Position numbers and translations under genes: made by a program. From Alteripontixanthobacter maritimus (GTDB taxonomy: Bacteria; Pseudomonadota; Alphaproteobacteria; Sphingomonadales; Sphingomonadaceae): a stretch of 64,000 nucleotides of DNA. This document shows positions 18,062-19,672 of this stretch, piece by piece. Within the stretch, counting starts at the first letter, position 1. Every line of letters begins with the position of its first letter. Under the pieces are notes generated by a model that did no database searches, had not been told where the DNA came from, and worked only from the letters and a program-made list of their open reading frames with translations. Location: positions 815,501 to 879,500 of the forward strand of contig NZ_QBKA01000002.1 of NCBI RefSeq assembly GCF_003340475.1. Reading direction: 5' to 3'.

Positions 18062-18147
18062 GGGTAATTTCCTTTCGTGAGAATACAGGTGCGCAACCGA
18101 TATAGGCGGCTTGGGCGTAGCGGCAACGGAAGCTTTGTTCGGATCAC

Positions 18148-18167
18148 ATATAAAGATAACTTTATAT
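18148..18167. promoter_or_regulatory. Perfect AT-rich palindrome upstream of ahcY (candidate ArsR-type operator)
   Basis: ATATAAAG-ATAA-CTTTATAT: two perfect 8-base half-sites with a 4-base centre, in a GC-rich genome, 92 bases before the ahcY start and 86 before the peroxiredoxin start. ArsR-family SahR regulators are reported to control S-adenosylhomocysteine recycling genes in proteobacteria from AT-rich palindromes. That this is such a site is inference. A possible -35 (TTGCAT, 18168-18173) directly abuts it. Confidence 0.55.
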
Positions 18168-18207
18168 TTGCATGAGCAGTCCGCAATCGCTAGGTAAAGC
18201 GCCACAC

Positions 18208-18259: not shown

Positions 18260-19672
18260 GTGGCCACGAAAGCCCAGGATTACATCATCAAGGATATCGG
18301 TCTCGCGGATTACGGCCGTGCTGAAATCAACATTGCTGAAACCGAAATGCCAGGCCTAATGGCTCTGCGCGAAGAATATGGTGCCGAGCAGCCTCTGAAG
18401 GGCGCACGGATTACCGGTTCGCTGCATATGACCATCCAGACTGCCGTGCTGATCGAAACGCTTACGGCGTTGGGCGCGGATGTACGCTGGGCGACTTGCA
18501 ACATCTTCTCCACCCAAGATCATGCCGCAGCGGTCATCGCGAAATCCGGCGTGCCGGTTTTCGCTGTGAAGGGCGAAACGCTGGCCGATTACTGGGACTA
18601 CGTCGGCCGCATATTCGACTGGGGTACCAACGAAGATCCGGACCAGACAGCCAATATTATCCTCGACGATGGCGGCGATGCAACCATGTTCGCATTGTGG
18701 GGCGCACGGGTGGAAGCCGGTGAAACCATGCCCGAGCCCGCCAATGCCGAAGAAGTCGAGATGCAGCGTGCGTTGAAGGCGTACATCAAGAAAAACCCCG
18801 GCTACCTGACCAAGTCGGTACAGAATATTCGCGGCGTTTCGGAAGAAACCACCACCGGTGTCCACCGCCTGTATTCGCTTGCCAAGAAGGGCAAGCTGCC
18901 GTTTCCCGCGATCAATGTGAATGACAGTGTGACCAAGTCGAAGTTCGACAATCTGTATGGCTGCCGCGAATCGTTGGTAGACGCGATCAGGCGCGCAACC
19001 GATGTCATGCTGTCGGGCAAGGTCGCCTGCGTCGCCGGTTTTGGCGATGTCGGCAAGGGTTCGGCCGACAGTCTTCGCAATGGCGGTGCGCGAGTGATGG
19101 TCACCGAAATTGATCCGATCTGCGCGTTGCAGGCAGCGATGGAAGGCTATGAAGTCGTCACCATGGAAGAGGCGACGAAACGCGCCGATATCTTCGTAAC
19201 TACCACCGGCAATGAAGACGTCATCACGGCGGAACACATGAAGGCGATGAAGCCCATGTCCATCGTGTGCAACATCGGCCACTTCGACAGCGAAATCCAG
19301 ATCGGCGCGCTCGACAATTACGAATGGGCGGAACTGAAGGAAGGTACCGACCTCGTCACCTTCCCCGACGGTAAGCAGATCATCATTCTGGCCAAGGGAC
19401 GCCTGGTGAACCTTGCTTGCGCGACAGGTCACCCCAGCTTCGTGATGAGCTGTTCCTTCACCAACCAGGTGCTGGCGCAAATCGAGCTTTTTACCAAGCA
19501 TGACCAGTATGAGAATGAAGTGTTCGTCCTGCCCAAGCATCTGGACGAGAAGGTGGCGCAGCTCCATCTCGACAAGCTCGGCGTGAAACTGACGCAGCTC
19601 AGCAAGCAGCAGGCCGACTACATCGGCGTGCCGGTGGAAGGCCCGTACAAGCCGGAACATTACCGTTACTAG
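18260..19672 (+). CDS. ahcY: S-adenosylhomocysteine hydrolase
   Basis: Hydrolyses S-adenosylhomocysteine to adenosine and homocysteine, relieving product inhibition of methyltransferases. It is 470 residues, the longer bacterial form that carries an insert in the substrate domain. GTG start at 18260 with AGGAGA upstream. NAD-binding [11 protein letters not shown] and the C-terminal PEHYRY are diagnostic. Upstream sequence holds a perfect palindrome and a hairpin, both listed separately, so expression is probably regulated. An imperfect terminator follows. Confidence 0.97.

Follow-up and report, generated by a model that had tools for sequence, protein, structure and literature searches.

A probable SahR-type operator against the predicted ahcY promoter of Alteripontixanthobacter maritimus and its gene-specific placement among predicted methyl-cycle promoters

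An AT-rich palindrome lying directly against the predicted ahcY promoter of Alteripontixanthobacter maritimus very probably serves SahR as its docking site. SahR is a known regulator that, in many related bacteria, switches on recycling of the by-product left by the spent methyl donor; we consider it highly likely that the whole SahR-operator explanation holds, including SAH-relieved repression of ahcY, sahR-metF-metH-metH and metK. The genes behind the three genomic copies of the palindrome make up the published SahR core regulon, which supports a SahR-type interpretation. The site, its three copies with their genes, its conservation, its co-occurrence with the regulator gene and its fixed position against a conserved promoter-like sequence are established here. 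A reading of raw sequence leads to the predicted operator of a known SAH-sensing regulator and yields a precise predicted methyl-cycle promoter map for an Erythrobacteraceae-like genome.

Results and Discussion

The palindrome and the predicted ahcY promoter

The window, by which we mean the whole 64,000-nucleotide stretch of DNA analysed, had been described beforehand as carrying a perfect 8+4+8 AT palindrome in the intergenic region between a peroxiredoxin gene and ahcY. Both points are confirmed: positions 18148-18167 read ATATAAAGATAACTTTATAT, with ATAA flanked by two 8-base perfect inverted-repeat arms, and the element lies between the starts of the minus-strand peroxiredoxin gene (18061) and of plus-strand ahcY (GTG, 18260; Table 1). 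Its 8-4-8 symmetry alone is not remarkable, the window holding three perfect repeats of this form against a mean of 1.25 expected from 20 shuffles, which is within chance, even though, in a window of 60.6% GC, the palindrome is the sole AT-rich-armed one among the three. The sequence itself is beyond chance: ATATAAAGNNNNCTTTATAT, expected 0.01 times per shuffled window at up to three mismatches, is observed once.

Table 1. Coordinates of the features around the palindrome, numbered within the window
Feature	Position	Strand	Details
Peroxiredoxin (Redoxin family), divergent, 159 aa	17582..18061	-	PF08534, E 5.8e-36
Possible peroxiredoxin promoter	18099..18126	-	-35 TTGCCG 18126-18121, 16-base spacer, -10 TATATC 18104-18099
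SahR-type operator (predicted)	18148..18167	.	perfect 8+4+8 palindrome ATATAAAG-ATAA-CTTTATAT; direct reading
Predicted ahcY -35, TTGCAT	18168..18173	+	zero bases after the palindrome
Predicted ahcY -10, TAGGTA	18191..18196	+	17-base spacer; same ahcY-site alignment
Predicted ahcY transcription start, approximate	18203..18203	+	placed from promoter position
ahcY, adenosylhomocysteinase, 470 aa, GTG start	18260..19672	+	TIGR00936, 588.8 bits vs cut-off 497.6

Alignment of ahcY sites reveals a conserved TTGC-N17-TA directly behind the palindrome, and in the window TTGCAT follows with no intervening base, in agreement with the earlier proposal that the palindrome abuts a possible -35. The strict pattern TTG[CA]-N17-TA occurs in 57 of 60 ahcY flanks (window included; the set excludes any site that has under 60 upstream bases or more than four mismatches), starting 0 or 4-6 bases past the palindrome in 56 of them, against a mean of 1.95 of 60 in shuffled flanks. 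A -10 of the form TAGGTA, without a final T, fits alphaproteobacterial promoters, in which, according to the accessible text of PMC8407463, the -35 TTG is kept and the final T of the -10 is mostly absent.

Three genomic copies and a candidate regulator

At up to one mismatch, the palindrome occurs at only three places in the 2.68-Mb genome (two contigs searched), preceding ahcY, an ArsR-methyltransferase gene that heads a metF-metH operon, and metK (identified by TIGR01034). Two further places appear at three mismatches; because the reversed-pattern control gives as many, we treat these as chance. The ArsR-methyltransferase gene, a putative sahR (G000:C2:1938897-1939943), encodes 348 aa with ArsR and methyltransferase domains, matching PF01022 and NF033788 above their cut-offs and PF08241 at its C terminus in profile searches, and is followed by metF (TIGR00676) and then metH in two parts (TIGR02082). 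Here the palindrome sits 10 bases upstream of the sahR start, a placement before the regulator's own gene that autoregulation would predict. The preliminary description had found no ArsR gene in the window and proposed a regulator acting from elsewhere, to be sought by scanning the genome for copies before methyl-cycle and arsR-family genes. Each element is borne out: all three PF01022 matches of the genome lie outside the window, the ArsR-methyltransferase gene is ~1.1 Mb away, and the scan recovers copies at sahR-metF-metH-metH and at metK. At up to four mismatches, the palindrome precedes sahR in 30 of 30 loci (the best 30 of 130 genomes with a match, own included) and metK in 21 of 30 (the best 30 of 147, own included), the other nine lacking the site; both samples are biased to near relatives.

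In the mechanism that we favour, SahR, a winged-helix protein of the ArsR family with a fused methyltransferase-like domain, would sit as a dimer on the palindrome, directly against the ahcY -35, and hinder RNA polymerase. S-adenosylhomocysteine (SAH), on accumulating, would bind the methyltransferase-like domain and cause SahR to leave the DNA, whereupon ahcY, sahR-metF-metH-metH and metK would be expressed together, SAH would be cleared, and methionine and SAM would be remade. That SahR binds the site, that it represses and that SAH is its effector are taken over from published SahR work.

Conservation before ahcY and co-occurrence with the regulator

Of 80 alphaproteobacterial ahcY loci, 60 carry the site at up to four mismatches in the 400 bases ahead of the gene, the best match having 0 mismatches in 37 loci, 1 in 13, 2 in 4, 3 in 4 and 4 in 2 (three loci, L065, L081 and L082, had fewer than 400 bases upstream); the remaining 20 have no match. 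At the same threshold the controls gave no match in 160 coding stretches and, in 80 reversed upstream regions, three matches, each with four mismatches. The site is thus conserved upstream of ahcY in relatives, so that both outcomes named as refuting in the preliminary description, a lack of further copies before methyl-cycle genes and a lack of conservation before ahcY, are contradicted. In a set of 149 family genomes that includes this one, the searches detected the regulator in 130 and the motif, at up to one mismatch, in 117: the motif is present in 114 of the 130 genomes with the regulator vs 3 of the 19 without (Fisher p 3e-10, a value that ignores kinship and counts some genera twice), and the reversed motif in 2 of 149. 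In three genomes the motif is hence present although no regulator was detected at E<=1e-40, and in 16 the regulator occurs but the strict motif does not. Together with the three genomic copies, the 60 of 80 ahcY loci and this co-occurrence lend sequence-level support to the initial suggestion of SahR-type ArsR control of ahcY.

The association is not a strict one. Among 45 named relatives the regulator is found in 43 and the ahcY site is missing from 10, nine of which keep the regulator (L044 is without it), so that a simple rule in which the site is lost when the regulator is lost can be rejected. Because most site-less relatives retain the regulator, the ahcY site can evidently vanish alone; and since several regulator-bearing genomes have no ahcY site (Aurantiacibacter odishensis, L013, as well as L018, L022, L039, L040, L041 and L051), the link between regulator and ahcY is not obligatory. 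A. odishensis is the nearest AhcY relative, and yet it lacks the ahcY site. The converse case is L047, where the ahcY site is present and the regulator was not found in that assembly. Across the ten site-less genomes and L047, motif copies at up to three mismatches appear in 10 of 11; these looser copies mean little alone, because the reversed pattern matches in 6 of 11. By coordinate, a motif copy adjoins the regulator gene in six of the 11.

Several individual genomes show arrangements of their own. In A. odishensis two imperfect palindromes lie 44 bases apart just upstream of the regulator gene (G149:C18:243999-244062), and a Novosphingobium sp. ES2-1 plasmid typed as conjugative (NZ_CP063447.1) carries sahR-metF-metH-metH (L184:3435-8014) preceded by a pair of imperfect palindromes spaced 30 bases from each other. 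By eye, ahcY seems to stand directly behind metK in L054, and in Thermaurantiacus (L057; G193:C10:381263-381282) the pre-ahcY and pre-regulator sequences, ATTTAAAG and ACTTAAAG, seem to have drifted together, possibly reflecting a changed SahR specificity.

Fixed operator registers and a possible contact with RNA polymerase

The position of the operator relative to the predicted promoter depends on the gene. At ahcY, 56 of 60 loci keep a gap of 0 or 4-6 to the -35, even as the distance from the operator to the start of the ahcY match spans 61-176 bases. At sahR, 22 of 30 loci have a TTG that begins 6 bases ahead of the palindrome, so that the operator fills the -35/-10 spacer; at metK, the TTG begins 38-40 bases ahead of it in 16 of 21, which puts the operator immediately downstream of the predicted start. 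The predicted sahR promoter (L005:6938-6974; G000:C2:1939937-1939973) would start transcription ~1 base before the ATG, which may leave the sahR messenger with no leader or almost none; several relatives look similar. For metK the predicted promoter, TTGCCA-N17-TAACAC, falls inside the end of an upstream lnt-like gene (L006:6756-6800), its -10 overlapping the stop codon of that gene.

We searched 396 genomes of the order for the exact palindrome followed by TTGC-N17-TA, allowing gaps of 0-14, and obtained 123 matches in 118 genomes, the reversed pattern giving 0. The gaps are discrete, at 0 (85 matches), 4 (4), 5 (25), 6 (3) and 11-14 (6), and never 1-3 or 7-10; ahcY is directly downstream in all 30 of the 123 matches that were examined. 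A class-wide sample gave matches in 9 of 385 genomes; outside the family the matches number six, with gaps of 4-5. Both registers occur inside single genera (e.g. g41, g91, g96), which suggests that the gap changes in one step, with no values between. The six exact palindromes with gaps of 11-14 are in other genomes and probably sit at genes other than ahcY; four of them have a common GTCAACGC stretch.

These registers bear on the most serious rival to simple repression, in which SahR is bound but does not merely block at ahcY: the operator would double as an UP element, or SahR would touch RNA polymerase, and control at ahcY would differ in kind from that at sahR and metK. An ahcY operator upstream of the -35 is less typical of a steric repressor than the sahR or metK positions, and both the gene-dependent placement and the missing order-wide gaps speak for this rival. 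Against it, the two ahcY registers lie half a helical turn apart, a spacing that suits a single fixed protein contact poorly; Brucella microti induces ahcY and sahR jointly, suggesting the same sign of control (available text of PMC8710502); and common ancestry accounts for part of the gap clustering. We therefore regard a departure from simple blocking as rather unlikely, and view with similar doubt the bolder formulation that one regulator works through three fixed gene-specific registers, with SahR or the AT-rich operator (as an UP element) interacting with RNA polymerase at ahcY. If that formulation is true, ahcY would tolerate, order-wide, no more than two separate spacings that differ by half a helical turn, and an interaction with RNA polymerase at ahcY, beyond blocking, would grade the response of three methyl-cycle steps. 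A fixed, gene-specific operator register was not found in the accessible main-text passages of the SahR literature searched, and it may be the only part of our account that specialists do not expect. The fixed registers pose the testable question of how one repressor draws different responses from three promoters, for which the lineages that keep SahR but lack the ahcY site offer natural variants.

The divergent peroxiredoxin

Co-regulation of the divergent peroxiredoxin had also been raised; a shared site would tie defence against oxidative stress to the methyl cycle. The two genes are divergent neighbours in the window, and of the 80 ahcY loci searched, 41 contain a peroxiredoxin homologue, 38 of which were used (L050, L051 and L052 were dropped because the locus end cuts the peroxiredoxin match). 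The site is present in 31 of the 38, and in 18 of those the peroxiredoxin gene is more than 600 bp away; in 18 of 18 such loci a distance of only 72-130 bp separates the site from ahcY, and the peroxiredoxin gene has no copy nearer than 300 bp. This does not support co-regulation. The possible peroxiredoxin promoter, proposed from sequence and from by-eye likeness in the near relatives L014, L016, L017 and L020, moreover lies 21 bases outside the palindrome. Peroxiredoxin probably does not belong to the SahR regulon, and a site serving both genes strikes us as improbable. In 22 of the 38 loci (L015, L021, L022, L025 and others), ~740-950 bases separate peroxiredoxin from ahcY, space for one gene.

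Other regulators and RNA-based control

The palindrome might instead be used by another regulator, whether a different ArsR, a MetR-like or a MarR protein, and the genome does encode two other ArsR-type genes (C2:567184 and C2:1904941). No copy of the palindrome lies next to either of them, however; the ArsR-methyltransferase gene, by contrast, has one 10 bases before its start, a pairing that recurs in all 30 best-matching loci (best 30 of 130); we rate a different regulator as very improbable.

A chance palindrome, a terminator or a leader RNA hairpin has next to no probability: 8-4-8 symmetry by itself is no rarity in the window, but the genome-wide distribution speaks against chance and conservation before ahcY refutes it. 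An inverted repeat, AAACGGGCC / GGCCCGTTT, does lie between the predicted ahcY start and the gene. No terminator was found, and 58 ahcY leaders fold no more than their shuffles (mean z 0.09, none below -2), and on these two results we reject leader RNA control of ahcY. Riboswitch control is excluded by Rfam searches, which detected no SAM/SAH riboswitch at E-values up to 1 at the three sites of this genome (three matches below threshold, each within L003, concern unrelated sRNA/miRNA models) and none above the gathering score in 14 ahcY loci without the motif, where one tRNA was matched.

Comparison with known systems

The reading that we prefer, SahR on its operator, can be set beside several known systems. 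In other proteobacteria a SAH riboswitch likewise regulates ahcY in response to SAH; it differs in being an RNA element, and has no Rfam match at the three sites described here. Among protein regulators, SahR itself is reportedly founded on the work of Novichkov et al. in 2014. SamR of Xanthomonadales, a distant SahR homologue, also recognizes a palindrome and controls methionine genes; as described in the accessible text of PMC4239095, it differs in its 24-bp motif and larger regulon, with ahcY outside it.

Closer likenesses are found within the Alphaproteobacteria. A Sinorhizobium meliloti homologue of the regulator, not labelled SahR, has 39% identity and, at 1023 bp, the length of the gene named sahR in Ensifer aridi (available portion of PMC8877191); it is followed by metF, and upstream of it lies a related palindrome, ACATAAACATATCTTTATGT. 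In B. microti, acid induces ahcY, metH, metF and sahR together, at least in the part of PMC8710502 available, which agrees with the prediction from one shared repressor. For SahR of alphaproteobacteria, the text available of Leyn et al. 2014 (PMC4239095) gives a 20-bp palindrome, regulons in 7 of 7 Sphingomonadales, and the core targets sahR, ahcY, metH, metH2, metF and metK. A. maritimus has three 20-bp sites with 0-1 mismatch, common to target genes, and sahR, ahcY, metF, metH and metK are all present behind the motif. Judged against the same text, the likeness extends to the ArsR-family gene with metF and metH, the length of the palindrome, the targets and the order, and the systems do not differ in kind; what is new is the three sites of this genome and the gene-specific position of the operator.
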